A stretch of DNA of 58,174 bases from a virus. Every line of letters begins with the position of its first letter. Within the stretch, counting starts at the first letter, position 1. The position numbers and the translations under genes are program-made. Under the pieces are notes generated by a model. It was not told where the DNA came from and made no database searches. It saw nothing but the letters and a program-made list of their open reading frames with translations. Of this stretch, positions 4,984 through 52,364 are shown in pieces. The stretch is taken from positions 1-58,174 of IMG/VR virus record IMGVR_UViG_3300032309_000708; one strand, given 5' to 3'.

Positions 4984-5021
4984 TTTACTTCTCCTTGTTT
5001 GCTAGTGATTTAAGTTTATGT

Positions 5022-10434: not shown

Positions 10435-10465
10435 TCTAGTCATTAAGCCGACAGTAGCAACCAAG

Positions 10466-10490
10466 CCCGCTAGCAATAGCGGGTTTTTTT
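10466..10490 (+). terminator. rho-independent terminator after copy 2
   Basis: Stem CCCGCTA/TAGCGGG with loop GCAA, then seven T residues, then ACGTC as in the first terminator. Confidence 0.85.
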
Positions 10491-11434: not shown

Positions 11435-12942
11435 ATCCTCAAGAACTGCAAACACTATTAAAGATACTTCCTACGATGACGGAATCCCAGATGCGGGATT
11501 TATATGTATCATTAGAAGAACATGACCAATTAGAAAGCAGAGAAAATGCAGCCAATAACTTCATGGATTTTGTACATAAGGTCTGGCCTAATTTTATTAA
11601 TGGAGCACATCATGTCAGAATGGCTAGGGCGTTTGAAAGAGTGGCTAGTGGCAAGTGTAAAAGGCTTATTATTAATATGCCGCCGCGACACACAAAAAGT
11701 GAGTTTGCCTCCTATCTCCTCCCAGCATGGTTCCTCGGAAAATACCCGGGCAAAAAAGTTATCCAGACGTCTCACACAGCGGAACTTGCAGTAGGTTTTG
11801 GTCGTAAGGTTCGTAACTTGGTGGACAGTGAAGTGTATGGGCAGATATTTCCCGGCGTAGCTCTTCAATCTGATAGTAAAGCAGCAGGACGATGGAACAC
11901 AAACTCTGGCGGTGACTACTTCGCTATTGGTGTAGGTGGCGCAGTTACTGGTAAGGGTGCTGATATTCTTATAATTGATGACCCGCACAGTGAACAAGAG
12001 GCTGCATTAGCTGAAATAAACCCAGAAATCTACGATAAGGTCTATGAGTGGTACACATCTGGCCCTCGTCAACGTCTGCAACCGGGTGGATCTATCGTAG
12101 TTGTTATGACACGCTGGTCAAAAAAGGATTTGACTGGGCAAGTTTTGAAGTCTGCGGCCCAAAGAAGCGGTGAAGAGTGGGAAGTTATCGAATTTCCTGC
12201 TATTTTGCCCTCTGGAAACCCACTTTGGCCCGAGTTTTGGTCTTTAGACGAGCTTTCAGCGTTAAAAAACGAGCTGCCCAACCAGAAATGGATGGCTCAG
12301 TACATGCAAAACCCCACTTCGGACGTTTCTGCGATAGTAAAAAGGGAATGGTGGCAAATTTGGGAGAAAGATGACCCTCCATCATGTGAATTTGTACTGC
12401 AATCGTGGGATACTGCGTTTGAAAAATCAAACAGGGCTGACTATTCAGCATGTACAACGTGGGGTGTGTTTTATCAGCCCGACGATACTGGTGTTACACA
12501 AGCAAACATCATTCTTTTGAACGCTTTTAGGCAGCGAATGGAGTTCCCGCTACTAAAGAAGAAAGCGATAGAAGAGTTTAAAGAGTGGGACCCTGATAGT
12601 ATTATCATAGAGAAGAAAGCTTCTGGTGCTCCACTTATATATGAGTTGAGAGCAATGGGTATACCTGTACAAGACTTTACGCCATCAAAAGGTAACGATA
12701 AGATTAGCCGTCTAAATGCGGTATCGGATATTTTTGCTTCAGGAAGAGTATGGATACCCGGCACTAATTGGGCGGAAGAAGTAGTTGATGAGGTAGCTTC
12801 GTTTCCCGGCGGAGAGCATGACGACTATGTTGACTCTGTGTCTATGGCGTTAATGCGGTTTAGAAGAGGTGGGTATATACGCACTGACTTAGATGAGCCG
12901 GAAGAGATTAAAGAGTTCCGCCGCAAGCGGGAATACTATTAA
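11431..12942 (+). CDS. terL: terminase large subunit
   Basis: 503 residues: an ATPase and nuclease that package DNA into the prohead. ATPase motifs: Walker A-type PPRHTKSE (84-91) and Walker B LIIDDPHSE (180-188). The nuclease domain has SWDTAFE (D326), IIEKK (E393) and EHDDYVDS (D463/D464), the acidic triad of the RNase H-like fold. Full length for the Terminase_6 type. The start overlaps the TerS stop by four bases. Confidence 0.95.
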   Translation: MNPQELQTLLKILPTMTESQMRDLYVSLEEHDQLESRENAANNFMDFVHKVWPNFINGAHHVRMARAFERVASGKCKRLIINMPPRHTKSEFASYLLPAWFLGKYPGKKVIQTSHTAELAVGFGRKVRNLVDSEVYGQIFPGVALQSDSKAAGRWNTNSGGDYFAIGVGGAVTGKGADILIIDDPHSEQEAALAEINPEIYDKVYEWYTSGPRQRLQPGGSIVVVMTRWSKKDLTGQVLKSAAQRSGEEWEVIEFPAILPSGNPLWPEFWSLDELSALKNELPNQKWMAQYMQNPTSDVSAIVKREWWQIWEKDDPPSCEFVLQSWDTAFEKSNRADYSACTTWGVFYQPDDTGVTQANIILLNAFRQRMEFPLLKKKAIEEFKEWDPDSIIIEKKASGAPLIYELRAMGIPVQDFTPSKGNDKISRLNAVSDIFASGRVWIPGTNWAEEVVDEVASFPGGEHDDYVDSVSMALMRFRRGGYIRTDLDEPEEIKEFRRKREYY

Positions 12943-12962
12943 GAATTAAGTAAGGATTAAAA

Positions 12963-15488: not shown

Positions 15489-15682
15489 TGGACAGAACTT
15501 TAGAGATTATCAAGCACCAGATAAACGAGAAACAAGCACAAGTAGCACATGCTATGAGTGAAGGTGCGGCGAAAGATTACGCGGAATACCGCGGAATGTG
15601 CGGTGAAATTAGAGGTCTTTCCATCGCAGAAGGATACATACTTGACCTTGCAAACCAAATGGAGCGAAACAACGATGAGTGA
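15488..15682 (+). CDS. hypothetical small helical protein
   Basis: 64 residues, helical (IIKHQINEKQAQVAHAMSEGAAKDYAEY), resembling small proteins found between portal and scaffold in related phages. It overlaps the portal stop by one base and the next gene by eight. The function is unknown; a head-assembly role is likely from position. Confidence 0.7.
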   Translation: MDRTLEIIKHQINEKQAQVAHAMSEGAAKDYAEYRGMCGEIRGLSIAEGYILDLANQMERNNDE

Positions 15683-16079
15683 AAACTTAATCATTGCGAC
15701 AGAACACGGTGAAATATCCGAGTTACCGCAAACTACGGAAGAAAAGGGTAAACAGTTGCCAGAACCAGTGGGATACCACATTTTGGTAGCACTTCCAGAA
15801 GCCGAAGAGAAGTTTGAAAGCGGCATTATTAAATCAGACGAAACACGTAGGTTTGAAGAAGTCTTAGCTACTGTATTTTTTGTAGTCAAGATTGGCCCAG
15901 ATGCTTATAAAGATGTTAATAAGTTCCCTACAGGTCCTTGGTGCAAAGAAGGCGACTTCGTTCTTGCAAGACCAAATAGCGGTACACGATTGAAAATACA
16001 CGGACGCGAGTTCCGACTTTTAAACGACGACACCATTGAGGCTGTCGTACAAGATCCACGTGGCATTAGCCGCGCATAA
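15675..16079 (+). CDS. GroES-like co-chaperonin
   Basis: 134 residues with a Cpn10-like beta-barrel: PVGYHILVALPEAEEKFESGI (the usual N-terminal strand), a mobile-loop-like segment, a KEGDFVLARPNSGTRLKI strand pair and a FRLLNDDTIEAVV end. Phage GroES homologues such as T4 gp31 pair with host GroEL to fold the major capsid protein, and the capsid gene lies 2.1 kb downstream. The start is the ATG at 15675 with GGAG upstream. No GroEL gene is present in this window. Confidence 0.75.
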   Translation: MSENLIIATEHGEISELPQTTEEKGKQLPEPVGYHILVALPEAEEKFESGIIKSDETRRFEEVLATVFFVVKIGPDAYKDVNKFPTGPWCKEGDFVLARPNSGTRLKIHGREFRLLNDDTIEAVVQDPRGISRA

Positions 16080-16089
16080 GGAGGTAAAT

Positions 16090-17058
16090 ATGGCAGATAT
16101 AGAAAAGACAGAATTTGAGTTTCCCGATGAGATAGAAGCCAAAGACGGTGGTAAAGTTGAGGCTAAAAATAACGTCGAGGATGTAGATTTTGATATTATT
16201 GACGATACTCCTGAAGAGGATCGTGGTCGTGAGCCATTGCCAAAAGAGGTAGTGGATGAACTAGACAAAGATGAGTTAGAAGACTATTCTGAAAAGGTTA
16301 AGAAAAAACTAATTCAGATGAAGAAAGTCTGGCACGATGAGCGCCGTGAAAAGGAACGGGTTCAACGTGAGCAGCAAGAGGCTATTGCGTATGCACAGCG
16401 TATACTTAAAGAGAATGAAAAGCTAAAATCTAGGCTAACTGCTGGGGAGAAAACTTTCCTAGACACCTATAAAGGCGCTGCAGAATTAGAGTTAGATGCA
16501 GCTAAAAAGGCTTATAAAGATGCGTATGACAACGGCGATTCGGATAGATTAGTAGAAGCGCAACAGAAGATTTCTGACGCTAACTATAAACTTCGTAAAG
16601 CAGAAGAATACGTCCCCTCTTTACAAGATGATAAAAGTAGTGTACAAAGCGAACCAGAAGTACAAGTGTCTCGCCCTGACCCAAGAGCTACTGCGTGGCA
16701 ACAGCGCAATACATGGTTCGGTCAGGACGAGGAAATGACCAGTCTAGCACTTGGACTACATCAAAAATTGGTCAAAGAGCATGGGGCAAATTACCCATCA
16801 ACAGATGAATACTGGGAAAAAGTCGATAGCACTATGCGTCGCAGATTCCCAGACTATTTTCCAAATGAAACGTCTGAAGCGGAAACTAAACCTGCTGGAC
16901 GTACCGAAAGAGCCGCTACGGTAGTCGCTCCTGCAACACGTAGTACAGCTTCCAAAAAAGTTGTGCTCAAGCAGTCAGAATTGGCTATTGCCAAGAAACT
17001 GGGAGTTACCCCTGAGCGATATGCCCGTGAAAAACTTTTAACAAATGGAGGCCAATAA
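16090..17058 (+). CDS. head scaffolding protein (probable)
   Basis: 322 residues from the ATG at 16090 with a GGAGG site. The N-terminus is acidic (TEFEFPDEIEAKDGGK, then DFDIIDDTPEEDRGREPLP), the centre a long charged coiled coil (KKVWHDERREKERVQREQQEA and on), and the C-terminus basic (ASKKVVLKQSELAIAKKLGVTPERYAREKL). That order, and its place before the capsid gene, fits a scaffold that shapes the prohead and binds capsid through its basic end. Confidence 0.75.
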   Translation: MADIEKTEFEFPDEIEAKDGGKVEAKNNVEDVDFDIIDDTPEEDRGREPLPKEVVDELDKDELEDYSEKVKKKLIQMKKVWHDERREKERVQREQQEAIAYAQRILKENEKLKSRLTAGEKTFLDTYKGAAELELDAAKKAYKDAYDNGDSDRLVEAQQKISDANYKLRKAEEYVPSLQDDKSSVQSEPEVQVSRPDPRATAWQQRNTWFGQDEEMTSLALGLHQKLVKEHGANYPSTDEYWEKVDSTMRRRFPDYFPNETSEAETKPAGRTERAATVVAPATRSTASKKVVLKQSELAIAKKLGVTPERYAREKLLTNGGQ

Positions 17059-17507
17059 TGGCTGAAAACAAATTAAGTAGAGAACTTGAAACCCGTGCTA
17101 TTCAGGAACGTCCTAAGCAGTGGACACAACCTGAGCTTTTGCCTGAACCAGATAAGCAGCCCGGTTTTGCGTACAGATGGATTCGCGTATCAACTTTACA
17201 GAATGCAGACCCACGTAATCTTTCAGCAAAAATGCGTGAAGGGTGGGAGCCAGTAAAGATTGAGGAGCAACCAAAATTTCAGCTGCTAGCCGATCCTAAT
17301 AGTCGTTTTAAAGACAACGTTGAGATTGGCGGACTGTTGTTATGCAAGACACCCATCGAGTTTGTGGAGCAGCGTAATAGCCACTACCAGAGACAGGCCG
17401 AAGGCCAGATGGAGTCTGTAGACCACAGCTTAATGCGTCAAAGTGACCCGCGTATGCCTCTCTTTAATGAGAAGAAATCTACGACGACCTTTGGCACTGG
17501 AAAATAG
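17058..17507 (+). CDS. hypothetical head-region protein
   Basis: 149 residues with a WIRVSTLQNADPRNLSAKMREGWEPVK core found in many aquatic phages just before the capsid genes. Soluble, with no known catalytic motif. Overlaps the scaffold stop by one base. Probably an assembly or minor head protein; the function is unknown. Confidence 0.7.
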   Translation: MAENKLSRELETRAIQERPKQWTQPELLPEPDKQPGFAYRWIRVSTLQNADPRNLSAKMREGWEPVKIEEQPKFQLLADPNSRFKDNVEIGGLLLCKTPIEFVEQRNSHYQRQAEGQMESVDHSLMRQSDPRMPLFNEKKSTTTFGTGK

Positions 17508-38736: not shown

Positions 38737-40461
38737 ATGAGCCTCCACGCACTAGCCAACCACTTGCAAGAAGCCGGACGCGGACAAGATAAAGTCCTAG
38801 TTCACATGACCCCTAAAGAAGTTAGTGGCCTTCAGTCACTTGCTATGGCACATGGCGGCTCCTTAACTGTTAACCCACAGACTGGCCTTCCAGAGGCGGG
38901 ATTCTTATCGTCAATACTCCCAATGATTGCGGGCTTTGCGCTTAATGCATTTCTACCCGGTGTTGGAACAGCTGTTGGTAGTGCGCTTGGTGGGTTAAGT
39001 GGCGCAGCGGGTACTGGTATTCTAGTCGGTGGTGTTACTGGCTTAGCAAAAGGAAGTTTAAAAGACGGCATCATGGCTGGCTTGGGTGCTTACGGTGGTG
39101 CGGGCTTGAGCGAAGGGTTGGCTTCAGCGGGGGCGGATAAACTAGGAAATGGGCTAGGTGAATTTGGTTCAACAGCAGGTCAAGGCACTGGTGCCGACTA
39201 TGCAAAGATGATGGCGGATAACAATATACAAGCCGTGTCTAATATGCCAAAAACCGTAGTAGACGCAAGTGGGGCTGGGGTTAATTCACTGAATAATGGT
39301 TTTGCAGGTTATCAAGCGCAAGGCCCATTTGCTAATGCTACAGGAACCAATGTGGCTCACATGTATGCGCCACAACCATCAGTATTACCCGGTTCTGCAG
39401 ACACTTTACGGGCTGGAATAGCTAACCCAACTATTACTACTCCTGTTAACCCTGCTGATTACGCATACGACCCAATTAGCAAAGCTATTGGTGAAGGACA
39501 AATTAAAGCGGCTAATTCACCGTTTGGGGTTGGGGCTGATGTTAACTCTATGGCTCAGCAATACGCAAAACCAATTCAAGAAGCAGCCACATATCAAACT
39601 GGAACGTATACCCCTCCACCAAGCAAATTTGATAAGATTGGTGCTGGCTTTGATCGTGCAACTAGTAGCTTTGAAGGCGCTAAAGAAGTATGGAACGCAA
39701 CCCCTAAAGGTACTGGACTTGGCTTAGCCGCAACCGGTATGAGCATAATGCAGGACCAACAAGAAGAAGCCGCCAGAGAAGCCGCCGCTGCCAATGCTGC
39801 CGCTGCCGCCGAACGTCGTGGAAGTTATCGCCCTTACGAATTCTCAACATCATTAGTAGACAATGCTTTTGCACCTAGAGAATCAACTTCTGAATTTGCT
39901 TACTTCAACGAACCTAGATATAAAGCCGGACCAGTTACAAAAGTAGCTAAAGAAGGCGGCATGATGTCTTTGGCAGTGGGTGGTCCAGTAGAAGAGATGT
40001 CTGCTCAAAATGCTATAAGCGGCAACATGATGTACCCACAGGCACAACTTCAAACTGACATGTACTCAAACCCTATGGTGCAGCGTCCAATGCCTAATAA
40101 TGTAATCTCGTCTGGCATTGATACCCCTGTTGGTATGTACACTGGCGAACAAAGAATGGCTGTTGGGGGCATATCTAGTTTAGGTGGTTATTCCGATGGT
40201 GGTCATTTACTGAAAGGACCCGGCGATGGAGTTAGCGATTCTATTCCTGCTTCTATTGGTGATCGTCAGCCTGCTCGCTTGGCTGACGGAGAGTTTGTGG
40301 TACCCGCTAGAATCGTATCGGAAATCGGTAACGGAAGCACGGAAGCGGGAGCAAGAAAACTCTATGCAATGATGGATCGTGTACAGAAAGCCCGTAAGAA
40401 AACAGTGGGTAAAAACCAAGTAGCTAAAAATACTAAAGCAGATAATCTATTGCCAGCATGA
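38737..40461 (+). CDS. internal virion/ejection protein
   Basis: 574 residues. The start SLHALANHLQEAGRGQDKVL, then VHMTPKEVSGLQSLAMAHGG, is a conserved pattern of aquatic podovirus-type virion proteins. A glycine-zipper hydrophobic region (about 65-120) could form a channel, and a Gly-rich middle and alanine-rich helix follow. It ends with GDGVSDSIPASIGDRQPARLADGEFVVPARIVSEIGNGS, a conserved C-terminal module. Ejection role inferred. Confidence 0.75.
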   Translation: MSLHALANHLQEAGRGQDKVLVHMTPKEVSGLQSLAMAHGGSLTVNPQTGLPEAGFLSSILPMIAGFALNAFLPGVGTAVGSALGGLSGAAGTGILVGGVTGLAKGSLKDGIMAGLGAYGGAGLSEGLASAGADKLGNGLGEFGSTAGQGTGADYAKMMADNNIQAVSNMPKTVVDASGAGVNSLNNGFAGYQAQGPFANATGTNVAHMYAPQPSVLPGSADTLRAGIANPTITTPVNPADYAYDPISKAIGEGQIKAANSPFGVGADVNSMAQQYAKPIQEAATYQTGTYTPPPSKFDKIGAGFDRATSSFEGAKEVWNATPKGTGLGLAATGMSIMQDQQEEAAREAAAANAAAAAERRGSYRPYEFSTSLVDNAFAPRESTSEFAYFNEPRYKAGPVTKVAKEGGMMSLAVGGPVEEMSAQNAISGNMMYPQAQLQTDMYSNPMVQRPMPNNVISSGIDTPVGMYTGEQRMAVGGISSLGGYSDGGHLLKGPGDGVSDSIPASIGDRQPARLADGEFVVPARIVSEIGNGSTEAGARKLYAMMDRVQKARKKTVGKNQVAKNTKADNLLPA

Positions 40462-40919
40462 GCTACACATTCCATTTAGGTAGGTTTAAAGAAACGTATG
40501 ACGAACTGGAGCCGTTGTACCGCCAGCACTATTTTGAGATGTGCGAGCGATTGGCAAAAGATGGAATACAGTATCCTCCTTATAACCCAAGGCTGGATAA
40601 GTATATTGAATCAGGCGAGAGTGGTTGGCTATTAACATTTTTAATTAGGCTAGATGGTCAGCCTGTTGGATATAGCAATGTTTATTTAACAAATGACATG
40701 CACAACGGTGATTTAATAGCGCAGGAAGATACTATCTTTGTACTAAAAGACCACCGTAATGGTGTAGGCAAGAAGCTAGTAAAAGTTATTCTTGAAGAAT
40801 TGAAAGAGCGCGGAGTGAAACGAGTAATAGTCTCCGCAATGACAGACCTGCGTGTAGCTAAACTATGGGGCCGAATGGGTTTCAAAGAAGCAGCAACGCA
40901 AATGATATATACATTTTGA
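40458..40919 (+). CDS. GNAT family N-acetyltransferase
   Basis: 153 residues. The acetyl-CoA motif A is KDHRNGVGKKLV (R100-x-x-G-x-G/K), followed by the helix KVILEELKERG, the strand KRVIVSAM and the C-terminal LWGRMGFKEAATQMIY. Acetyltransferases of this kind sit among ejection genes in Bcep22- and P-SSP7-like phages; the target is unknown but may be a virion protein. Overlaps the previous gene by four bases. Confidence 0.85.
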   Translation: MSYTFHLGRFKETYDELEPLYRQHYFEMCERLAKDGIQYPPYNPRLDKYIESGESGWLLTFLIRLDGQPVGYSNVYLTNDMHNGDLIAQEDTIFVLKDHRNGVGKKLVKVILEELKERGVKRVIVSAMTDLRVAKLWGRMGFKEAATQMIYTF

Positions 40920-40927
40920 GGTAAATT

Positions 40928-41905
40928 ATGTGCGGCTCATCAGCTCCTCCACCACCATCAAGTCAAACCGTAACTCAGACTTCCATACCTGAGTACGCGC
41001 AACCGTATGTAGAAAGAATGCTTGGTAAAGCAGAGGCTTTTAGTGAAGCCCCTTATCAAGCTTACGGTGGTGAACGTATTGCTGGGTTTACGCCTATGCA
41101 ACAACAAGCGCAACAAGCAGCTGCTAATCTTGGTCCTTCACAACAATTAGGATTAGGTACACAGATGGCAGGTATTGCGGGACTTGGTCAGCTTGGTGCA
41201 GGTCAGCAGTACGCAATGCAAGCAACCAACCCGTATGCAATGGGTGCGTATATGTCTCCGTATATGGAGAATGCGTTAGCACCACAAATGCGTGAAGCTG
41301 CTCGTCAGTCTGCTATACAAGGTCAGATGGATCAAGCTAGAGCTGTACAGCAAGGCGCGTTCGGTGGTGCGCGTACTGGAATTGTAGAGGCAGAGCGTCA
41401 ACGTAATTTACAAACTCAGCTTGGTGATATATATGGCAGAGGTATGCAAACTGCTTATGATCAAGCTCGTCAAGCACAACAGTTCGGTGCAACACTTGGA
41501 CTACAGGGCGCGCAAGGTGCAGCACAGACAGCAGGTACTCTTGGCCAATTAGGTCAAACACAGTTTGGTCAGCAAAGAGATATTATCAATGCCCAAGCCA
41601 CTGCAGGTGCACAACAACAGGCATTGCAGCAAGCACAACTACAACAGAAGTATCAAGACTTCTTGACGCAAAAGGCTTATCCACAACAACAACTGGCGTT
41701 CATGTCGGACATGTTGCGTGGTGCGCCATTAGGTCAACAGACACAACAGCAATACACAGCAGCAGCTCCATCAGGTATGGGTCAAGTGGCGGGTTTAGGA
41801 CTAGCCGCACTCGGTGCTAGTAAAGCAGGTTTGCTCGGTGCTAAAGGTGGTAGCGTTCCATACGGCTTAGATAAAGTAGCAATCGACCAGTTGATGAAGG
41901 GTTAA
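40928..41905 (+). CDS. Gln-rich internal virion/ejection protein
   Basis: 325 residues beginning CGSSAPPPPSSQTVTQTSIP, a pattern common to podovirus ejection proteins. Then come long Gln/Ala-rich helices (QQAQQAAANLG, TAYDQARQAQQFGATLGLQ) and a hydrophobic glycine-rich C-terminus (GQVAGLGLAALGASKAGLLG) ending in KGGSVPYGLDKVA. Likely an ejected helical protein. Confidence 0.7.
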   Translation: MCGSSAPPPPSSQTVTQTSIPEYAQPYVERMLGKAEAFSEAPYQAYGGERIAGFTPMQQQAQQAAANLGPSQQLGLGTQMAGIAGLGQLGAGQQYAMQATNPYAMGAYMSPYMENALAPQMREAARQSAIQGQMDQARAVQQGAFGGARTGIVEAERQRNLQTQLGDIYGRGMQTAYDQARQAQQFGATLGLQGAQGAAQTAGTLGQLGQTQFGQQRDIINAQATAGAQQQALQQAQLQQKYQDFLTQKAYPQQQLAFMSDMLRGAPLGQQTQQQYTAAAPSGMGQVAGLGLAALGASKAGLLGAKGGSVPYGLDKVAIDQLMKG

Positions 41906-41907
41906 TT

Positions 41908-43350
41908 ATGTCAATCAATTACGGCCCAATAAACGAGATTAAAGATTTAGCGTTTAAATACTCTAAGCCACAACTTGGACGTATGGCGCAGCTTGGGTTG
42001 ATCGATACCCAAAAAGCTGTATTAGCAGCTATGATGAGAGAACGTGTTGCTAAACAAGATGCACAACCGCCGACCGCAACAGTAGCGCAAGATGCACTTG
42101 GCTTACAACCTCCACCACAACAACAAGCTCAACCGCAGCCGCAACAAATGGGCATGCAGCAAGGGCAACCTCAACAGGCTCAGCCACAACCACAACTAGC
42201 TCAAGCCCCTGCTGGCATAGAGTCTTTACCTGCCGGTAATGTTGGCAACTACGCTGGTGGTGGCATTGTTGCGTTTGATGAAGGTGGTGAGGTACCGGGT
42301 TACGCTCGTGGTGGGTTTCCTACTATGCCAAGTACAAATATTCAGTTAGGTCAACTTAAAGGCCCACAGGAAAAAACAATTGAAGAAATAATTGCTGAAC
42401 AACAAGGCGTATACGAGCAACAAGGCTTAGTAAACCCGTATGAAGGGTTAATGCAACAGCAAGAAGCTAAGCGTGGTGAACTCGATACACGTAGAGAACA
42501 AGCTAAAGGTGAGTTCTTAATGAATCTTGGCACCGGTTTAATGCAGGCTCAAAAAGGTAGAGAGTTAGCAGCTTTAGGTACAGGTGCGCTTAAAGGCATG
42601 GCAGACTACAAAGATGCTATGAAAGATTTACGTGCATCTGAAGAAAAACTTGACGATAGAATCGGCGCATTTAAGTTGGCTGATTATCAGGCTAAGAAAA
42701 CCGGCACAGATGCTGCTATTGCTAGACGTGACTCGCTTCGTGATAAAGTTATAGAAACCGAAAATAAAAATATCGAAGCTCAAAATGCTGTTGCAGTTGA
42801 AGGCAAGAAACTTGAGATGCAAGGGTTTAATACCGCAATGGGTTATAAAGGCACTGTCGATGCCGCAAGTATACGCAACGCAGCTATGCCTGACTTATAT
42901 AAGATGGCAAATTCACCCGACATGTTAAAATCTATGCCTAACTCTACGTTTGCTCAACGACTAGAAGCAGTAGGTAAATACGCGCATCCTAAAGATTCGT
43001 ATAACGCATTAACATCACGTTTTAACTTATTAAATAAAACCATTGCTGAGACTAACTATCCATTAAGTATATCGTACAACTTGGCAAAGACAGATGCGGA
43101 GAGAAAAGAAATTTTAGATAAGATGAATGCAAATGCTACTAGAATTAGAACAGAGCAGCAGTGGACCGCGTCTGATAATGCTAGACTGCAACGCGAACAA
43201 GCTCAATTAGATGGTACAACACAAACACAAGGTCAAGCTTTACCACTGCCCCCTACCGAAGCAGAACTTCAAAAAGGGCAGCTATATACTACTGCAAGAG
43301 GCCCAGCTATTTGGAATGGAACAGCGTTTGTAGCAGCACCTGCAAGATAA
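41908..43350 (+). CDS. internal virion/ejection protein
   Basis: 480 residues. An N-terminal helix pair (PINEIKDLAFKYSKPQLGRMAQLGLI), a Pro/Gln-rich low-complexity linker (about 50-105), a conserved GGGIVAFDEGGEV patch (about 117-129), then helices. The C-terminus ends with a short beta module (KGQLYTTARGPAIWNGTAFVAAPAR). Probable ejection protein; overlaps the giant gene start by one base. Confidence 0.7.
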   Translation: MSINYGPINEIKDLAFKYSKPQLGRMAQLGLIDTQKAVLAAMMRERVAKQDAQPPTATVAQDALGLQPPPQQQAQPQPQQMGMQQGQPQQAQPQPQLAQAPAGIESLPAGNVGNYAGGGIVAFDEGGEVPGYARGGFPTMPSTNIQLGQLKGPQEKTIEEIIAEQQGVYEQQGLVNPYEGLMQQQEAKRGELDTRREQAKGEFLMNLGTGLMQAQKGRELAALGTGALKGMADYKDAMKDLRASEEKLDDRIGAFKLADYQAKKTGTDAAIARRDSLRDKVIETENKNIEAQNAVAVEGKKLEMQGFNTAMGYKGTVDAASIRNAAMPDLYKMANSPDMLKSMPNSTFAQRLEAVGKYAHPKDSYNALTSRFNLLNKTIAETNYPLSISYNLAKTDAERKEILDKMNANATRIRTEQQWTASDNARLQREQAQLDGTTQTQGQALPLPPTEAELQKGQLYTTARGPAIWNGTAFVAAPAR

Positions 43351-46300
43351 TGGCAAATACATTTTCGTTTGAAGACGCTTTAAAACCAGCGCCACAACAA
43401 GGGCCTACTACGTTTTCGTTTGAAGATGCGTTTAAGCCCGCCGTAACTTCTGGGCCGAATCCACTAGACCCACAACAACCTGCGCCAGTACAAGCAGCTC
43501 AACCTGCGCCTACACCTACACCTGTTGCTAAAGAAGAACCCGGCCTTTTAAATGATATATCTAAAGGCTTTCAACGTATACCAGCTAGCTTAGCTGAACA
43601 ATACGAAGGGATATTTACACGTAAAACTGCGCAGATGGCCAAGGGCAATCAAGTCCAAACTGCGTTGTATAACATGATTGATGCTGGTCAAATTAAATCC
43701 GACAGCGATCTTAATAAAGCTTATTTAAAATTACTGTATGGTAAAGAGCAACTATCTCCAAAAGAAATACTAGCGCATGGTAATTTAAAACAAAGTTTGG
43801 CAGCCGCAGATGCGTATGAGTATATGAACTCGTCACCAGAGCATCGTGCTGCTATGAGAAAAGGCGTTGAAACTGCAGCGTCTCAATCTTTAACTAGGTT
43901 TGAAGAATCACGAGCACGTAGTAAAGAACGTGAAGCAGAACTAGAAAAGCTTGCCCCAAGAGTTAGACAGTTTACTGATATTGGTAGTCCGTATGAAGCG
44001 GCTAGTTGGGCGGCTGGTAGATTGCCTGAGTTTGTCGGTACAAACCTTCCACAGATAGCTGCGGGTTATTTTACTGGTCCCGGCGGTCTTGCCCTTACTA
44101 GCGTAATACCAGAACTTTCAGGTGGAACTAAAGAACGTGTTAAGTACATGGAAGGTATTGTTAAAGACGAACCTGATCCAGCTAAACGCAGTCAAGCTTT
44201 AATTGATTACATAAATAAAACGCAAGATGTTACGTTGCAGGCGGCTGTGCTTAATGGTCTAACGGACATGATTATTGGTCCTGAAGCCGAAGCAGTTAAG
44301 CTTGGTGTACAAAGCGCATTTAAAGAAGAGGTACGCAAAGAAATTCTTAAGAAGCTACCAAAAGTTGTAGGTGGTGAAGCTTTAGGTGAAGGCGCTACTG
44401 GCGGCATCCAAGAAATTACCAATATGGTAGCGGAAAGATCTTTGGGTGAGATGCAAGGTGGCGTATTTACTGCTGAGAATGCTAAACGTATTATCAACTC
44501 AATGGCTGATGAAGCACTTGGGGGCGCAGGTGTATCTACTGGAATGCAACTAACTAAAGCCGCGTTAGCTAAGAAAAACTTAGCCGACACAGATACGCCT
44601 GAAGGCAGGGCAATGCGTGGCCTTGATGATTTAGTTAATCGAGAAGAAGCCGGAACAACAGAAGATATGACCGTTCCGCCTGCCCCACCTGCTCCACCCA
44701 CAGCACCACAACGTGCAATACCTACCGAACCACTATTTACGTTTGATACCCCTGAACAGGCGCAAGAGCGTACTAACCTATTAAAAGTTAACCGCCCTAA
44801 AGAAAACTTTGCGGTTCAAGAAACAGAAGATGGCAAATTCGGCGTATATCAAATACCAGTCGGAGAAACAGGAGGTACAAATGTTACCCCACCTGCAGTA
44901 AATAAAAAAGAAGTAGAACAAATAGCTAGAGGTGGGTGGTTTGAGTTATCCGATGCAGAGCGTTTAGAACTGCAGGGGGATTTACAGTTTCTTAAAGATT
45001 CAGGAAGAACTATAACCATAAATAGTATACCCGAAGAAATTCGAGCAAAACTAAGCCATTCTGCATTAATAAATTTAAAATCCGCGTTAAACCAAGATAT
45101 CAATGCAACTATAGCTGCGCTAACGCCGTCTAGCAAAAAAGAAACAGCCACAGGAGGTGAAGATGTTACCCCACCTATCACAGACGCAGATGGAGCTGGC
45201 ACTGAAAATATTGGCGAACCCCCACAAGGTACCGGTGCCGGAATCCCTCCATCATCTGAGGGAACAGGACTGGGTGTTTCTGATACAGATGTTACGGGAG
45301 CTGGAGTATCAGAAGGAATTCAGCCTCATACACTAACCAGAAAGCAATTCCAAGAAGCTAATACAGACCTTCAAACGTTTAATAATTTATTTTCGCCAAA
45401 CTTTGAACTTACAGACAACTTAGATACGTTATTAACTAGCGGCACTGAAAGCGATCTTCACGTTGCAAGCAAAATATTTGGGCTTAAACCTGTTATAGGT
45501 AAAAAACGCGCTGCGGAAAATATTTCAGCGACTATTAAAAAAATGAAATTGGCAGAGGGTTTAGATCCCGCACAAGTGGCGGGGATGAAGTTGCCTGAGC
45601 TAAAAGAATTAGCCAACGAACTTGGAATATCTACATACGGAAATAAAGATGTACTTATATCAAAAATTAATAACTTCTACCCTAATTTAGAAAGTAAAGT
45701 TGAAGAAAATTTAAAAAATTATGCCCACGAAACCGCTGTTCGTAGTGCTGTAGTAAATGGAAAACCTGTAAGTGATGAGGTACTAAAAGACTATCCGGAG
45801 ATTGCTGCGTACGCAACCCCATTGGGATCAGGGGCATATACTCAAGCTATAAAAACGTTGTCAAGGAAAATGCTACCGCAACATCTAATGGACGTGCCAT
45901 CTACTGCGCGACACCTTAGAGAAGATGCAGAGCAATCAGGTGATGGAAGACAAGCTGCCGTGCTAAGGGACATTGCCGATGCAATGGAAGAGTATTACAA
46001 AAACGCTTTTGGTATAAAAGAAGAAGCACCTGCAGCTGAAGAAACTGTACCTACAGAAGAAGAAGTAACCGCGCTTAACGACACTATTGAAAAAGGTATA
46101 AAGGATAAACTTGAAGGTTTATTAGTCGGCGATGAAGTTAGATTTGGTAACACCCCCGGCGTTGTTGTCGGCTTAGAAGGTGATTATGCTAAGTTTCATT
46201 CCGCTAGTTCATCTAATCCTAAAGCGTACACACGCGTACTAAAAAAACAATTAACTTTTGTATCGCGTCCTAATACAAATTTTACATCTGCGTCTTCAAA

Positions 46301-49300
46301 AGAACCTACAAAATTTGGCGAAGAATCGGGGATGCTTGACGTAAACAAAGCTAGGCTTACTAAGACGCTTGGCGCAAATATGTATAAGGAAAACCTTGCC
46401 GACGTTGCAGTTAAAGAGATGCTGCAAAATTCTTTTGACTCTGTAAAAGCTAATGTTTTCTTTGGAAATATTAAAGAAGGCAAAATAGATATTAAATTTG
46501 ATTCAGGTAAGCGAACTATAACTATTACAGATAACGGGGAAGGCATGACGCCTGAAATCGTTAGAAAAGCTTTCTTTACTATCGGTGGGTCACACAAAGC
46601 TGGTGTACCTATGGAACTGCAAAGTGGCGGTTTTGGTATGGCAAAGCTTGGCTTTATTATGGGGTCCGAAAGTATACAGTTAAATACTGTTAAAGATGGC
46701 GTGCGCACTAAAGTTGATGCTACTTCTGAAGATATAGGCAGTGACAACTTTAAGATACAAAAAAGCCCTGCTCCAGCAAATGAGCATGGCACTACTATAA
46801 CAGTAAAAATACCTGAAACCTATACCGATGCCCGCAGTGGTGATGAAAAATCAGTTTATTTTCCTTATGGCTTATATGGTGTAAGTGCATTAAATCGTCC
46901 ATTAATAGGGCCAGTAGAAGTAAATGTAGATTTTGATGGGGATAAGAAGACCCTTCCTATTGGGGTTAACTTTGATTTTGAAGCTACGCCAAAACTAACT
47001 ACAGTTAAGTTCCCTTGGGGTACAGCAGATGTGTATTTTGGTGTAGAGCGCAAGCCAGAAAGATACGAACCAAAACATAGAGTTTTAAGTAGCGGTGTAT
47101 ATCAGTTTGATTATAATAAATTTAATTTAGGGCAAAATGAACCAATACCATACGACATCATAGTAGATGTTAAATCTGCTGTGGAAGCTACAGATAGAGA
47201 ATATCCGTTTGAAAAAAATAGAGGAAGTTTTAATGAAGTAATTATAGAAGATATAGCATCATTAGCGCAGTATCTTGCAAAAGTAGCTAGAGGCCACGAA
47301 GCAGAAGGATTGCAAGAAACATTTAAAGATATTGTAACTATGCCTCGTACAGAGGTGGGTACAGAAACGGCTGAAGCATCTGCAAAACTTAGAAAAGTTT
47401 TTGACCAGCGTGGCGCAGACAAGGGTACGTACGAGTTACCACCAATGCCTAAAGAAATTATAATATCAGGCGGTACAGTTACAGATAACAAAGGTGCTGT
47501 GCTAGTAGAAAAAGAAAAAACAGAAGATAGAAAACGTGAGTCTGGGTTTGAAGCGGATAAAGCTGCGCCTGAAATGTCCCAGTTCTTAGTGGATATGAAG
47601 CAGGACCCACGACAGCCAATATTTCATAGTAATGTAAATACAGACTTATTAGAAATTGGTCGTAAATATGGTAACCCAGAACAGTTCTTTGCCGAGTTAG
47701 GTACTCTAGTAGTAGAGATGAAAGAGGAACTATCTAAGAGTGGTATATGGACATACGACCAGTTATCTCCAGAAAATCTATTTTTTGCCGGTGTATCCAT
47801 AGATAAAGGCTACGGCGGTGTGTTTATAAGAGTGCCATTTAAAGGTATTTTACTTAACCCGTTCTATGACTGGGGTGCAAAAACTTTATTCGGCGTTCGT
47901 CAAAACTTTTTAAACACAATGATTCATGAGATTGCACACCAAACAAGTGGTGAGCATGATCGCTCTCATGAAAATGCCATGCTAAAGATAGAACAGTATT
48001 TAGCAGATACTGGCACATTAGATTATTTTAGAGACGCTATACTAGATATTCTAGTAAAGCATGAGTCAACTTTTACCGCAATGCGGGAGGCGTATGGAAG
48101 ATCAACAACAAAGAACGTTGCAAAGTCTCTTGAGGATTACGGGAAATCTCCCACCTCAGCAGAAATTGGAAGAGATGAGGGCCGCCGCACAGACACGTCT
48201 GGTAAATTATCAGAACGAGGGGAACCAGTACGGAGTAGCGACTTACGTACCGATAGTGGCGAAACTGGAAAAAGCGAAGTCGGTAGAGGAGGCCCTAAGT
48301 TTTCTGTAAGCAACGAAGAGAAGATTATTAACCAAGGCATGGTTGGGGGTGACTTACACCCAACAGTAGTAGACGCTATTGCTAATAACGACCTTAACGG
48401 TGCGCTAAAACTAGTAGCTGATCGTTTATCTAGTATTGGGTTTAAAACCAAATCGGGTTACTTTTTAGGGCAGCTTGCAAATAGACTAGCAGATTTAAAC
48501 TTGCCTACAGGTATACGTATTGGCGACCAACGTAATTTAACGCGTAGGTCTATTGATTTATCCACTGCCCCTGCACAGATACAACTGTTTAATTTTATAC
48601 GTGTGGCTATGCCAGATGTGTATAACAAGTATTTCCAAGGTTACGATAAAGCTGAAAACCTTGAACAAGTGTATGCCGGTCTAAAGCATATTCAAAACAA
48701 TCCAAAGTTAAAGTCAGTGTTGCCACAGTACGAATCAATATTGCGGTCGTTTGACAACAACATGGTTGCTTTAAAAGCTCTTGGTGTTTACTACCCAAGA
48801 TTCGATGAAATAAATTTAAACGATAAACTCAAAGACGGGCTTTCGTATCAAACGTTTTTACATGAAGTAGTACACGCTGCTACAGAAATACTTTTGCAAA
48901 CGCCAGCAAATGAGCGTACCGCTGAACAAAATGAAGCTATTGCAGAGTTAGAGAAACTATTTAATGCAGCAAAAGCTAATTCGAATGTTGCCCATTATGG
49001 GTTTACAGATTTATCAGAATTTATAGCAGAGGTGTTTACAAACCCGGTATTTATAAAAGACTTAAAGGGTATACCATATCCACCTGCACGTACAAATATA
49101 TTTAATAGGTTTGTAAAGATAATAATGGATTTGATTGGTATGGACAACGTTGCTGGCCGTGCAATGATAGAGGCCCAAAAGTTGTTTAATGCTGACCGTC
49201 CAAACATACCAATGTCGGCGGGTCCTAGATTTGCAACAAGGCAACGTGGACCTATTAGTTCTAAATGGCGAATTGTAGAAGATACCATGAAGAGCGTTAA

Positions 49301-52300
49301 GAATTGGGAAGTTATTAAGAACGACTTAGTTCCTGCAATGTGGGACGCTACTAATGGTGTGTTCCGTAGCGCTATGCTTGGTGTTATGAACTTACGTCAG
49401 ATTGCTGACGTTACTAAAACTAAGTTCCCGCAGATTGACGCTGCTATTCGTACGATTGAAAAGATGCTTGCTTATCGTGGCAAGATTATGAACGACGGCG
49501 GTGAAATTGTTCAACGTTGGACTAAGGCTCAAGCTAAGAACTTAAAAGGTTCGCAGTTGCTAGGTCGTGTTATGTTAGAAGCTACTATTCGTGGGGTAGA
49601 AGTTGACCCACAAAGTAGTCAATATAATCCACTTAATTTTGTAGTAAATAAAGAATTAGTGGACGCTTGGGACGCATTAGGTCCAGACTTCCAACAGATA
49701 TACAGGGATGTACGGGATTTCTATAAACGTGCCGTAGAAGAAACAGTACGCCTAATGAAAGAACGTGCTAACAGTGTAACTGACCCTGTAGAGCGCCAAG
49801 AACTTTTAGACAGGATTGATGCACAGTTTGGCCCTGATAAATTAAAAGGTCCGTACTTCCCGTTGCGTCGTTTCGGTGAGTTCTGGTTCCAAGTGGGTGA
49901 AGGTAACTTTAAAGAATTCTATATGTACGAAAACCGTATAACTAGAACTATAGCTATGCGTGTTAGAAAGCGTGAATTATCCAAAGGTAATGCGCGACAA
50001 CGTGCGCTAGCAGAAACAATAAGTAAGGGTAACGGCGTGTCTACGTTGTACAGTCAGAACGTGGGTACTACTAAAATACTACAAGACGTACAAGATATAG
50101 TTGATAGTATAGGTAATAGCGTGGTTGATACAGCTACAGGCTTACCTAGAGATAAAACTCAAGATGAGTTAAAGGGCGAGATCAGAGATAGCTTAAACCA
50201 GCTTATCTACATACTGCTACCACAACAGAGCATGCGTAAGATGTTTATTAACCGCAAAGCAATTCAAGGCGCAAGCGGCGATATGTTACGTGTGTTTGCT
50301 ACACATGCGGTTCACAGTGCTTACCAACGTTCACGCTTTAAATATGCTCAAGACTTTATGGATAACTTATCCAATGCGCAAAATTGGATTGCTTCGTTTG
50401 CAAAAGGTGATAAGGCTGAAGTTTATCGTGATTATGTAAATGAAGTAGAAAAACGTTCTAAAACAATTTTAGGTACTGAAGATACTAGTTTGGCTGCAAG
50501 AGCTGCGGGTAAGGCTTCTGAGGCAGTGTTCTACTTTATGTTGTCTGCACCGTTTACTGCTATGTTAAACCTAGTGGGCTTTGCTCAAATAGCTATGCCG
50601 TACATTGGTGGTAGATATGGCTACGCAAAAACTAATGCCCGTATATTAGAAAACATGGGTAAGTATTTGCAGACAGTACCGAAGCGTACATTCTCACCTT
50701 TAGTAAACGGTGCTGTAATGGATATGTCTTTCCCTTCTATAGTAGAAGGTGGTAACTTAACTGGCATATTAAAAGACGCGGCACAACAGCTTTTAGACGA
50801 AGAGCAAATTAATATTTCTTTAACTAATGATGTTTTAAATGTTGGTTCAGGCCCAACAGCGGCATATACTGGCACATACAACGCTGTTAAACGTGGTATA
50901 TCCGCTTTGTTCCATCAATCAGAACGTCTGAACCGTGAGATTACATTACTGTCGGTTGTGGAACTTGCATATGAAAAGCTCATGTCCGAGCCTATCAAAG
51001 ATGTTAAAGGTATTGTTAAACGTGACGCACAGGGTCAACCTATGCGTTATACCGACAATGCTACAACCTCTGATGGTACAACTCAGTATTCACAAGAAGC
51101 TTTAGAGTTAGCTATTAACGAAGCTAAAGATATTGCGGGCTTATCGCTTGGTGACTTTACTCGCCAAATGAAACCTAGATTTTTTACGCCACCAATATTA
51201 AGTGTATTAACTAAGTTTAAACAGTATGCAGTTTTAGCTTCTTATGCAGTTATTCGCAATGCACATTTAGGATTACTCAAACCGTTTTCGAAAGCAGAGT
51301 TAAATGAGTTGCGTGGTGTACTAGAAGAGCATTACAAAACTGCTGTAGATAAAGATAAGATAATTGAACAGCAAATGGCTGAAGCGCAAACGCGCCAAAA
51401 AGAAATTGCTAAAGAAGCGCGTCGTAGGCTAGCAGGTATATTAGGTATGACGTATTTGTTTGGTGGCTATGTTGCCTTGCCGTTTTTTAGCACGGTTACA
51501 CCTATACTGGTTGGCATGTTGGCGGGTGACGAAGACGATGAGGACGACTTCTTTGACTGGGAAAATTGGTTTAAGAATTATATGGAAACCGAATTTGGTG
51601 GTTATGTCGGCGCTATGTTACAGAAGTTCGGTGTTGACCAAGAAAAAGCAAATAAGGTAGGTAAAAAAGTTAGTGAGACCCTTGTATATGGTCCAGCTTC
51701 TACAGTTACTGGCGGTGCTTTATCTGATCGTGTTAGCTTAGACTTAAAAAATCTATGGTACAGAGATGGTCGTTATTCACCTGACACCCGTGAAAGTATT
51801 GTAGAAAGCATGATTGCTAACGCAGGTCCTGTGGTTGGTTTAACTGTAAACGCAGCAGACGCATGGGATATGATACAAGAGGGTAAAGTTGGCCGTGCGT
51901 TTGAGAGAATGGCTCCAGCTCTATTTGCTAAACCAGTAACCGCAGCTCGTTTAGCTACTGAAGGCGCTAAAACAAAAGGTGGTGACGTTCTTGTAGATGA
52001 ACTTACAACTACAGAAATAGCATTGCAAGCAATTGGTCTACAACCTTTACGTGTAGCAAAAGCACAAAAAGCTTCAATTGAAACAGTAGAAAAAGTGCAG
52101 AAGATTCAGGACCAGTACAGCTCCTTAATGAATAGGTTATGGATGGAGCGTAACAACCCACAAGAATTTAATGACGCACTTGAAAAACTAAACGAGTTTG
52201 CTATGAAACATCCGGGGTATAAAATAAACGGCAGGACTATAAAAGAGTCGTTTAAGAAACGTGCTGAAGATGCAGCGTTGGCAGATGTGTTTGGTGCTCG

Positions 52301-52364
52301 TATACCTAAGCCGTTACAAAGCGACCCTACAGTTACGAACATGCCAAACTACGGTAAGGATTAA
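43350..52364 (+). CDS. giant polyvalent ejection protein with SAP, GHKL ATPase and two zincin motifs
   Basis: 3004 residues. Residues 4-14 and 21-31 are near-identical (TFSFEDA-x-KPA), then a Pro-rich linker and helices. A SAP-like module is at about 742-777. A GHKL ATPase domain (about 1010-1270) has the N-box E1023/N1027 (EMLQN), the G1 box DNGEGM (1061-1066) and the G2 box SGGFGMAK (1092-1099). Zincin motif 1 is HEIAH (1526-1530) with a third His at 1536; motif 2 is HEVVH (1838-1842). The last third is helical with hydrophobic stretches at about 2392-2421 and 2695-2726, the latter followed by an acidic patch. The length and mix fit polyvalent proteins delivered with phage DNA. Confidence 0.85.
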   Translation: MANTFSFEDALKPAPQQGPTTFSFEDAFKPAVTSGPNPLDPQQPAPVQAAQPAPTPTPVAKEEPGLLNDISKGFQRIPASLAEQYEGIFTRKTAQMAKGNQVQTALYNMIDAGQIKSDSDLNKAYLKLLYGKEQLSPKEILAHGNLKQSLAAADAYEYMNSSPEHRAAMRKGVETAASQSLTRFEESRARSKEREAELEKLAPRVRQFTDIGSPYEAASWAAGRLPEFVGTNLPQIAAGYFTGPGGLALTSVIPELSGGTKERVKYMEGIVKDEPDPAKRSQALIDYINKTQDVTLQAAVLNGLTDMIIGPEAEAVKLGVQSAFKEEVRKEILKKLPKVVGGEALGEGATGGIQEITNMVAERSLGEMQGGVFTAENAKRIINSMADEALGGAGVSTGMQLTKAALAKKNLADTDTPEGRAMRGLDDLVNREEAGTTEDMTVPPAPPAPPTAPQRAIPTEPLFTFDTPEQAQERTNLLKVNRPKENFAVQETEDGKFGVYQIPVGETGGTNVTPPAVNKKEVEQIARGGWFELSDAERLELQGDLQFLKDSGRTITINSIPEEIRAKLSHSALINLKSALNQDINATIAALTPSSKKETATGGEDVTPPITDADGAGTENIGEPPQGTGAGIPPSSEGTGLGVSDTDVTGAGVSEGIQPHTLTRKQFQEANTDLQTFNNLFSPNFELTDNLDTLLTSGTESDLHVASKIFGLKPVIGKKRAAENISATIKKMKLAEGLDPAQVAGMKLPELKELANELGISTYGNKDVLISKINNFYPNLESKVEENLKNYAHETAVRSAVVNGKPVSDEVLKDYPEIAAYATPLGSGAYTQAIKTLSRKMLPQHLMDVPSTARHLREDAEQSGDGRQAAVLRDIADAMEEYYKNAFGIKEEAPAAEETVPTEEEVTALNDTIEKGIKDKLEGLLVGDEVRFGNTPGVVVGLEGDYAKFHSASSSNPKAYTRVLKKQLTFVSRPNTNFTSASSKEPTKFGEESGMLDVNKARLTKTLGANMYKENLADVAVKEMLQNSFDSVKANVFFGNIKEGKIDIKFDSGKRTITITDNGEGMTPEIVRKAFFTIGGSHKAGVPMELQSGGFGMAKLGFIMGSESIQLNTVKDGVRTKVDATSEDIGSDNFKIQKSPAPANEHGTTITVKIPETYTDARSGDEKSVYFPYGLYGVSALNRPLIGPVEVNVDFDGDKKTLPIGVNFDFEATPKLTTVKFPWGTADVYFGVERKPERYEPKHRVLSSGVYQFDYNKFNLGQNEPIPYDIIVDVKSAVEATDREYPFEKNRGSFNEVIIEDIASLAQYLAKVARGHEAEGLQETFKDIVTMPRTEVGTETAEASAKLRKVFDQRGADKGTYELPPMPKEIIISGGTVTDNKGAVLVEKEKTEDRKRESGFEADKAAPEMSQFLVDMKQDPRQPIFHSNVNTDLLEIGRKYGNPEQFFAELGTLVVEMKEELSKSGIWTYDQLSPENLFFAGVSIDKGYGGVFIRVPFKGILLNPFYDWGAKTLFGVRQNFLNTMIHEIAHQTSGEHDRSHENAMLKIEQYLADTGTLDYFRDAILDILVKHESTFTAMREAYGRSTTKNVAKSLEDYGKSPTSAEIGRDEGRRTDTSGKLSERGEPVRSSDLRTDSGETGKSEVGRGGPKFSVSNEEKIINQGMVGGDLHPTVVDAIANNDLNGALKLVADRLSSIGFKTKSGYFLGQLANRLADLNLPTGIRIGDQRNLTRRSIDLSTAPAQIQLFNFIRVAMPDVYNKYFQGYDKAENLEQVYAGLKHIQNNPKLKSVLPQYESILRSFDNNMVALKALGVYYPRFDEINLNDKLKDGLSYQTFLHEVVHAATEILLQTPANERTAEQNEAIAELEKLFNAAKANSNVAHYGFTDLSEFIAEVFTNPVFIKDLKGIPYPPARTNIFNRFVKIIMDLIGMDNVAGRAMIEAQKLFNADRPNIPMSAGPRFATRQRGPISSKWRIVEDTMKSVKNWEVIKNDLVPAMWDATNGVFRSAMLGVMNLRQIADVTKTKFPQIDAAIRTIEKMLAYRGKIMNDGGEIVQRWTKAQAKNLKGSQLLGRVMLEATIRGVEVDPQSSQYNPLNFVVNKELVDAWDALGPDFQQIYRDVRDFYKRAVEETVRLMKERANSVTDPVERQELLDRIDAQFGPDKLKGPYFPLRRFGEFWFQVGEGNFKEFYMYENRITRTIAMRVRKRELSKGNARQRALAETISKGNGVSTLYSQNVGTTKILQDVQDIVDSIGNSVVDTATGLPRDKTQDELKGEIRDSLNQLIYILLPQQSMRKMFINRKAIQGASGDMLRVFATHAVHSAYQRSRFKYAQDFMDNLSNAQNWIASFAKGDKAEVYRDYVNEVEKRSKTILGTEDTSLAARAAGKASEAVFYFMLSAPFTAMLNLVGFAQIAMPYIGGRYGYAKTNARILENMGKYLQTVPKRTFSPLVNGAVMDMSFPSIVEGGNLTGILKDAAQQLLDEEQINISLTNDVLNVGSGPTAAYTGTYNAVKRGISALFHQSERLNREITLLSVVELAYEKLMSEPIKDVKGIVKRDAQGQPMRYTDNATTSDGTTQYSQEALELAINEAKDIAGLSLGDFTRQMKPRFFTPPILSVLTKFKQYAVLASYAVIRNAHLGLLKPFSKAELNELRGVLEEHYKTAVDKDKIIEQQMAEAQTRQKEIAKEARRRLAGILGMTYLFGGYVALPFFSTVTPILVGMLAGDEDDEDDFFDWENWFKNYMETEFGGYVGAMLQKFGVDQEKANKVGKKVSETLVYGPASTVTGGALSDRVSLDLKNLWYRDGRYSPDTRESIVESMIANAGPVVGLTVNAADAWDMIQEGKVGRAFERMAPALFAKPVTAARLATEGAKTKGGDVLVDELTTTEIALQAIGLQPLRVAKAQKASIETVEKVQKIQDQYSSLMNRLWMERNNPQEFNDALEKLNEFAMKHPGYKINGRTIKESFKKRAEDAALADVFGARIPKPLQSDPTVTNMPNYGKD

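Follow-up and report, generated by a model that had tools for sequence, protein, structure and literature searches.

A giant phage polyvalent protein carrying an exchangeable cassette of a predicted GHKL ATPase and a Wss1-like zincin

The locus

The window analyzed here is a stretch of 58,174 nucleotides of viral DNA (IMG/VR record IMGVR_UViG_3300032309_000708). It encodes a protein of 3004 residues, hereafter the giant, which follows three genes on the same strand:

40458..40919, + strand, GNAT-type acetyltransferase of a conserved neighbourhood (phrog_1249, 4.3e-12; same order in BcepIL02)
40928..41905, + strand, member of a DNA ejection protein family, two genes upstream of the giant (phrog_4287, 1.2e-21)
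41908..43350, + strand, 480-residue gene adjoining the giant, with relatives at the same place in L009 and L003
43350..52364, + strand, giant polyvalent protein, an open frame from ATG with Pfam and NCBIfam domains and relatives in other phages

The 480-residue gene had no PHROG match. The giant's gene is located in the late structural block, lacks tandem repeats, and is under purifying selection (dN/dS about 0.15-0.22). The following features were placed within it, all on the + strand:

45150..45323, +, Gly/Thr/Pro-rich linker, codons 601-658, a DNA junction common to the window and L003
45579..45680, +, SAP domain (Pfam PF02037), residues 744-777, beyond the part of the cassette that is conserved as its core
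46032..48293, +, mobile cassette of predicted GHKL domain, middle domain and zincin 1, residues 895-1648, a block 47-84% identical between giants whose flanks are often unrelated
46302..46829, +, predicted GHKL ATPase domain, residues 985-1160
46416..46439, +, GHKL N-box, E1023-D1030
46530..46547, +, GHKL G1 box, DNGEGM, residues 1061-1066
46623..46646, +, GHKL G2 box, SGGFGMAK, residues 1092-1099
46830..47549, +, middle domain, residues 1161-1400
47562..48185, +, zincin 1, predicted Wss1/WLM-like metalloprotease, residues 1405-1612
47925..47957, +, zinc site HEIAH-x5-H of zincin 1, residues 1526-1536
48861..48875, +, HEVVH motif of zincin 2, residues 1838-1842, belonging to the LPD39 carrier
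49365..49862, +, LPD39 domain, residues 2006-2171 (Pfam PF18858, 9.3e-18)
49374..52361, +, C-terminal carrier of PLxRFG type (NCBIfam NF032893, 1.2e-86), matching giants of 57-63 kb phages by tblastn

We are highly confident in this anatomy of domains, cassette and carrier. A sequence-only reading of the same DNA had taken the protein for one of the polyvalent kind, and the domain matches bear this out: SAP, GHKL, two zincin motifs and LPD39, several unrelated biochemical activities, lie in one polypeptide. Its SAP-like module scored 24.3 bits against a Pfam cut-off of 23.9 bits; SAP was not reported by Pfam in the L016-L020 or L003 giants. Two HEXXH motifs were observed where 0.023 would be expected for a protein of this composition.

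The carrier and its neighbours

The second zincin motif, HEVVH at 1838, is present as that reading had described it and belongs to the LPD39 carrier; HExVHAAT occurs in 12 of the 18 LPD39-group giants checked, with the variant HEFSHAAT in one more. A structural protein of a Cellulophaga phage also matches zincin 2 weakly. The proposed hydrophobic C-terminal third, on the other hand, was not borne out. Its mean Kyte-Doolittle value is -0.36, versus -0.43 to -0.48 elsewhere in the giant, and only residues 2703-2726 exceed 1.6.

The giant's shared C-terminus bears the PHROG label DarB-like. We rejected a DarB-type antirestriction protein, as the SNF2 ATPase (helicase) and adenine methylase part is absent and no such Pfam match was found. 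Homology of the C-terminus to JC1 gp69 or BcepIL02 gp70 was likewise dismissed; those proteins carry LPD38, whereas the window giant carries LPD39. The carrier is common to the Skulduggery giant (2e-102), but neither that protein nor BcepIL02 gp70 matches the GHKL or zincin 1 profiles, and JC1 gp69 has helicase and methylase-type domains instead. DarB-like giants of Bcep22-type phages (BcepIL02 gp70, JC1 gp69) and the Skulduggery giant are placed, like the window giant, after head-closure, acetyltransferase and ejection-type genes.

The company of ejection genes, on which the idea of an ejected protein had partly been based, extends to relatives: besides the phrog_4287 member in the window, every one of the 25 loci extending far enough has an ejection-protein relative upstream of its giant. 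An LPD38 giant, JC1 gp69, was found in virions by mass spectrometry (PMC9144972); the window giant is of the LPD39 type, and the cassette itself also occurs in LPD38 giants. By this analogy, and from the conserved ejection gene, the giant is probably packed in the virion and delivered to the host with the phage DNA.

A predicted GHKL ATPase domain

The sequence-only reading had recognised an N-box, DNGEGM and SGGFGMAK in GHKL order, and profile searches agree with it. Pfam HATPase_c_3 covers residues 1018-1144 (46.3 bits against a cut-off of 25, E 5.6e-12), and a PDB search with the family profile returned HtpG at 1.3e-8 together with other HSP90 chains. HGT at 1146-1148 comes last in the motif order and completes the set. 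The motif residues are invariant in 34/34 relatives that have both GHKL and zincin 1, the window giant included: E1023, N1027 and D1030 in the N-box, D1061, G1065 and M1066 in G1, and G1093, G1094, G1096 and K1099 in G2. Position 1063, the first Gly of DxGxG in G1, is Ala in 29 of these giants. Structure prediction of the whole cassette from a seven-row alignment gave a pLDDT of 45, too poor to show a GHKL fold, and we assign the domain from its sequence profile and motifs.

HSP90/HtpG and other GHKL ATPases share the N-box, G1, G2 and G3 motifs and are the best solved sequence relatives. The window giant nevertheless scores 40.7 and 30.2 bits, far below the HSP90-family equivalog cut-offs of 455 and 371 bits respectively, lacks a recognisable HSP90 middle domain, and is fused to a protease; it also misses the MutL cut-off (16.9 of 180 bits). 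Three matches to the GHKL query (L001, L010, L011) proved to be chromosomal MutL or HtpG and were set aside. Among phages, the counter-defence protein T4 rIIA likewise joins a GHKL ATPase to a partner domain that varies (PMC7824862). That paper does not describe rIIA as zincin-bearing, while the window GHKL is zincin-fused, and hhalign detected no specific relation between the two (probability 1.3%). Plasmids carry GHKL relatives adjoining helicase, TIR or DGQHR genes, and no HEXXH was found in these plasmid relatives.

Of the 34 cassette giants, 33 match the middle domain with E-values under 1e-46 and the remaining one, L072, at 2e-23; W1223, Y1285, P1286 and R1291 are invariant. A PDB search with it gave no sequence relative. 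We considered an HSP90/MutL transducer, but the long hhalign span vanished once the domain was tested alone. Since the domain has no similarity to known transducer domains, coupling to ATP is a guess.

A Wss1/WLM-like zincin

The HEIAH motif at 1526 and its third His at 1536, both noted earlier, are present, and H1526, E1527, H1530 and H1536 are invariant in 34/34. A further His lies at +14 in 32/34, and remote relatives read HELAH-x5-HDxxF. The structure prediction and fold search suggested earlier gave matches for this domain: the AF2 model has a pLDDT of 82.9, and Wss1 fills the first four rows of both Foldseek and VIA-align against PDB (Z 7.5-8.1; Z 8.1 over 112 residues for the best), with a weak Foldseek E-value of 0.16. 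Pfam WLM matches six relatives (best E 1.9e-6) and scores the window giant at 18.7 bits, below its curated cut-off of 26 bits. Because the predicted fold is best matched by Wss1 in two programs, Pfam WLM recognises relatives, and HEXXH-x5-H is invariant, we assign zincin 1 a Wss1/WLM-like predicted fold rather than a generic motif.

Wss1 is a yeast DNA-cleaning protease, and Wss1/WLM enzymes are DNA-protein-crosslink proteases. Zincin 1 resembles them in predicted fold and zinc site but differs in being GHKL-fused inside a virion-type giant and in the extra His at +14. No cellular homologues of the zincin, or of middle domain plus zincin, were found in 299 Pseudomonadota genomes or in 99 genomes from the phylum to which the Cloacimonadota record belongs, in searches run without a positive control, and none of zincin 1 in the plasmid or phage records searched.

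The cassette is one mobile unit

The cassette occurs in 35 distinct phage giants and is colinear in all 34 that have upstream sequence. As these giants were collected by zincin patterns alone, the colinearity shows that GHKL and zincin 1 form one unit and that their pairing is obligate. Both the ATP-site and the zinc-site residues remain invariant (34/34) down to 28% identity. The earlier description of a set of effectors thus holds in part: the GHKL and zincin 1 domains are real, but they are one inseparable mobile unit and not separate effectors.

This unit is exchanged as a block between giants. Its carriers are of two backbones unrelated to each other, LPD39/PLxRFG and LPD38 (the latter DarB-like, in L016, L017 and L018), with at least 4-5 carrier switches. 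The sister phage L003 has a carrier 79% identical to the window's and a different cassette, with another zincin in its place. The two phages share the linker, 174 nt of 90.8% DNA identity whose flanks are non-homologous or diverged. We looked for a wider family of this linker DNA, but within IMG/VR the pattern occurs in L003 and L009 only. Since L003 has the same carrier without the cassette, the carrier does not need it.

Phage-type polyvalent proteins, including PLxRFG/LPD39 and LPD38 giants, were surveyed by Iyer et al. (2017; PMC5512222), and the window giant shares their large size, unrelated enzyme domains, LPD domains, zincins and virion or ejection neighbours. It differs in pairing GHKL fixedly with a Wss1-like zincin; the survey's main text makes no mention of GHKL. 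Domain matches, cassette spread, carrier switching, the L003 junction and ejection-gene linkage together argue that the giant is a polyvalent protein whose putative effector is exchangeable and new.

Possible functions of the cassette

As a whole, the best explanation, to which we give an even chance, is a virion-delivered polyvalent protein with a conserved LPD39/PLxRFG carrier and an exchangeable, host-directed two-enzyme cassette. The cassette would then act as a single machine, in which the middle domain couples an HSP90-type GHKL with a Wss1/WLM-like zinc protease. Most likely packaged in the particle, the giant would enter the host alongside the phage DNA; the GHKL part would close and open with ATP, capture proteins, plausibly DNA-bound ones, and present them to the protease, so that host defence or chromosome-bound proteins may be cleared early in infection. 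We propose this host-directed, ATP-gated mechanism tentatively, as catalysis, ATP gating and DNA-bound targets are all inferred.

Zincin 1 might instead cut the giant itself during or after packaging, with the GHKL domain folding, unfolding or timing the cut as part of a maturation machinery. Autoprocessing has been proposed for the zincins of polyvalent proteins, P1 DdrB and others (PMC5512222). The carrier also retains its own second zincin, which would suit self-processing. Against this reading, a same-carrier giant exists without the cassette (L003), though with another zincin there. As self-processing also leaves the GHKL ATPase unexplained, we regard it as rather unlikely, though deserving of real weight. 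Chance motifs or a decayed, functionless remnant are very improbable: short motifs alone can arise randomly, but the significant profile matches, invariance in 34 relatives, purifying selection and a HEXXH expectation of 0.02 disfavour them.

The position in the late block and the HSP90-type closest solved relatives would also fit an assembly chaperone, in which GHKL folds or loads the giant or other virion parts in the producing cell and the zincin removes failed products. Giants with the same carrier but lacking the cassette exist, however, and the cassette moves among unrelated carriers, unlike a dedicated assembly factor, which makes such a role unlikely. The cassette, delivered or expressed in a lysogen, might also target other phages or plasmids and not host proteins. 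A superinfection block has been suggested for polyvalent proteins (PMC5512222), and GHKL relatives occur on plasmids with the gene neighbours noted above. The late-gene position speaks against this reading, as it suggests virion delivery over expression in a lysogen, and we consider a target among competitors quite unlikely. The boldest form of the ATP-gated reading is a previously undescribed virion-delivered protease: a GHKL clamp, opening and closing with ATP, would hand (DNA-bound) proteins over to the Wss1-like zinc protease fused to it, and the pair would have spread among phages as a swappable cartridge in giant carriers. We regard this as a speculative possibility.

With this cassette the polyvalent-protein arsenal gains a predicted ATP-using GHKL-protease pair. 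Nearly identical carriers with and without it provide closely matched natural comparisons, which show the giants to be carriers of exchangeable payloads. Whether an ejected protease clears proteins off incoming or host DNA is thus a question that can now be tested.

Domain organization of the giant protein

The window, 58,174 bases long, is a single IMG/VR-type virus record; its forward structural block ends with the gene of a giant polyvalent protein; the next long gene past it is primase/helicase-like and lies on the opposite strand. The features considered here are:

40458-40919, acetyltransferase (PHROGs)
40928-41905, member of a DNA-ejection-protein family (PHROGs)
43350-52364, + strand, giant ORF, 3004 aa
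giant residues 744-777, SAP (Pfam, above curated cut-off)
giant residues 1018-1144, HATPase_c_3 (Pfam, above curated cut-off)
giant residues 2006-2171, LPD39 (Pfam, above curated cut-off)

The giant also contains a PLxRFG "tail-700" module (NCBIfam, 1.2e-86) and two HEXXH motifs, against 0.023 expected. A hydrophobic C-terminal third, from which the sequence-only reading had argued for ejection, is absent. We refer to the GHKL ATPase, middle domain and first zincin (zincin 1) as the cassette and to the C-terminal LPD39/PLxRFG backbone as the carrier.

HSP90-type NCBIfam models matched the ATPase with significant E-values, at scores far below the equivalog cut-offs. A profile built from 15 cassettes matched 134 distinct PDB sequences, with HtpG best (1.3e-8), and the 60 listed among these were all HSP90-family chains. 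Eleven GHKL residues (E1023, N1027, D1030, D1061, G1065, M1066, G1093, G1094, G1096, K1099 and G1147) were invariant in 34/34 giants. The first glycine of DxGxG (G1 box, window residue 1063), an ATP-contacting site, is retained in the window, but 29 of the 34 cassettes have alanine there; the substitution is unusual and of note to biochemists.

Because Pfam matches to zincin 1 in the window itself were weak, we used relatives to model it (AlphaFold2, residues 1405-1605, alignment of 34 rows), with a mean pLDDT of 82.9. Wss1 filled all of the top four PDB rows in both Foldseek and VIA-align (Z 8.1, 3.2 A over 112 residues), followed by other zincin-type metalloenzymes. Since the Foldseek E-value to Wss1 was weak (0.16), the weight of this assignment rests on agreement with an independent sequence result, namely Pfam WLM matches in six relatives of the cassette (best 1.9e-6). 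The first zincin proposed from sequence alone was thus borne out by both a predicted fold closest to Wss1 and these matches. Its zinc-site residues (H1526, E1527, H1530, H1536) were invariant in 34/34 giants, and the two most remote relatives have the HEXXH-x5-H ligand pattern as HELAH-x5-HDxxF. The BFVD predicted structure A0A516L4L2 resembles zincin 1 (TM 0.80), which shows that public sequence data already contain this zincin, unnamed.

The second zincin region (residues 1827-1931, window 48828-49142) resembles part (44255-44563) of a Cellulophaga phage phi14:2 structural protein at 27.6% identity; one record annotates that protein as RNA polymerase associated protein.

Pairing of the ATPase and zincin 1

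Scanning IMG/VR with zincin-1 patterns (40 contigs in the last scan) gave, together with the window and earlier matches and after removal of near-copies, 35 distinct cassette giants. The order GHKL, middle domain, zincin 1 was the same in all 34 with upstream sequence, a pairing that the method did not build in, as GHKL sequence played no part in the scans. The converse search, for cassette-type GHKL lacking the zincin, was a weak test, with one match, where the zincin was present. Identity to the window fell to 28% among the 34 giants with invariant GHKL and zincin residues, and dN/dS between the window and phage L009 was about 0.15-0.22 for the three cassette domains. The middle domain has invariant W1223, Y1285, P1286 and R1291; similarity to known transducers was looked for and none was detected.

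One of the largest giants with the cassette (L032, 401-12160, 3920 aa) carries one of the more divergent copies, flanked on either side by long regions that have no assignment. GHKL relatives annotated as ATP-binding proteins also occur on two plasmids:

L074 (Agrobacterium plasmid), 4932-6506, GHKL ATP-binding protein
L075 (Bradyrhizobium plasmid), 4866-6434, GHKL ATP-binding protein

On both, the gene comes immediately after genes for a DGQHR-domain protein and a radical SAM protein, a layout suggestive of an uncharacterised conflict or DNA-modification system.

GHKL ATPases are ATP-closed clamps or dimers, as in HSP90, MutL and type II topoisomerases, and Wss1-type proteases cleave DNA-attached proteins. 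The obligate pairing suggests that the ATPase and zincin 1 work as one machine. ATP binding would close the clamp on a client protein, and the closed clamp would present this client to the protease, with the middle domain placed where a transducer would be.

The main rival is autoprocessing, in which the zincin would cleave the giant itself, as proposed for many polyvalent-protein zincins (PMC5512222). As a main role, this is opposed by sister giants that lack the cassette and by the separate zincin of the backbone (1838), although in the sister phage L003 another zincin occupies this slot.

The 2017 paper that described polyvalent proteins (PMC5512222) does not mention GHKL in its main text. 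In our full-text search of open-licence literature, no account of a phage GHKL-metallopeptidase fusion turned up, which is not proof of novelty; the single paper found mentions GHKL solely in topoisomerase and rIIA (PMC7824862).

Cassette exchange and probable delivery

In 25/25 cassette loci whose upstream sequence exceeds about 2 kb, an ejection protein homologue lay upstream of the giant; these loci represent both carrier groups and include the remote L071 and L072. In purified virions, the giant gp69 of phage JC1, which has a Pfam LPD38 domain, shows one of the highest coverages of any protein (51 unique peptides; PMC9144972). BcepIL02 gp70 is matched by the LPD38-group profile at 5e-60, and the window's LPD39 carrier matches the Pseudomonas phage Skulduggery giant at 2e-102. 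Virion delivery is therefore well supported for this kind of giant, and we infer it for the window's own.

L003 encodes ejection and acetyltransferase proteins 95% identical to those of the window, and the C-terminal 1350 aa of its giant (9872-17443) are 79% identical, while its cassette is unrelated and holds another zincin. This replacement cassette (residues about 543-1178, zincin motif HEILHHLE), in which Pfam recognised no enzyme, resembles a 468-aa insertion in L017. Within the giant genes, the two phages share an island of 90.8% DNA identity:

window 45150-45323, 174-nt island
L003 11312-11485, 174-nt island

Diverged sequence precedes the island, about 1000 codons without homology follow it, and homology restarts at codon ~1664; the island is likely a crossover anchor for cassette swapping. 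Between the window and L009, dS of the Gly/Thr/Pro-rich linker at this island was 0.019 against 0.34-0.72 in the cassette domains, an imprecise value from only 62 codons. L009 aligns with the window giant over its full length (74%), more closely in the first half than at the C-terminus, whereas L003 is closer at the C-terminus, which makes the window gene a mosaic.

Cassette carriers form two groups, LPD39/PLxRFG and LPD38, between whose C-termini blast, HMMER and hhalign (probability 0.6%) detected no similarity. On the cassette tree, built by a quick method and with L071 and L072 on long branches, parsimony requires at least five carrier changes, four of them forced by well-supported branches. 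L017 and L018 are 92% and 87% identical either side of a clean insertion of ~470 aa that holds another zincin. On these sequence comparisons, payloads are exchanged within a common carrier.
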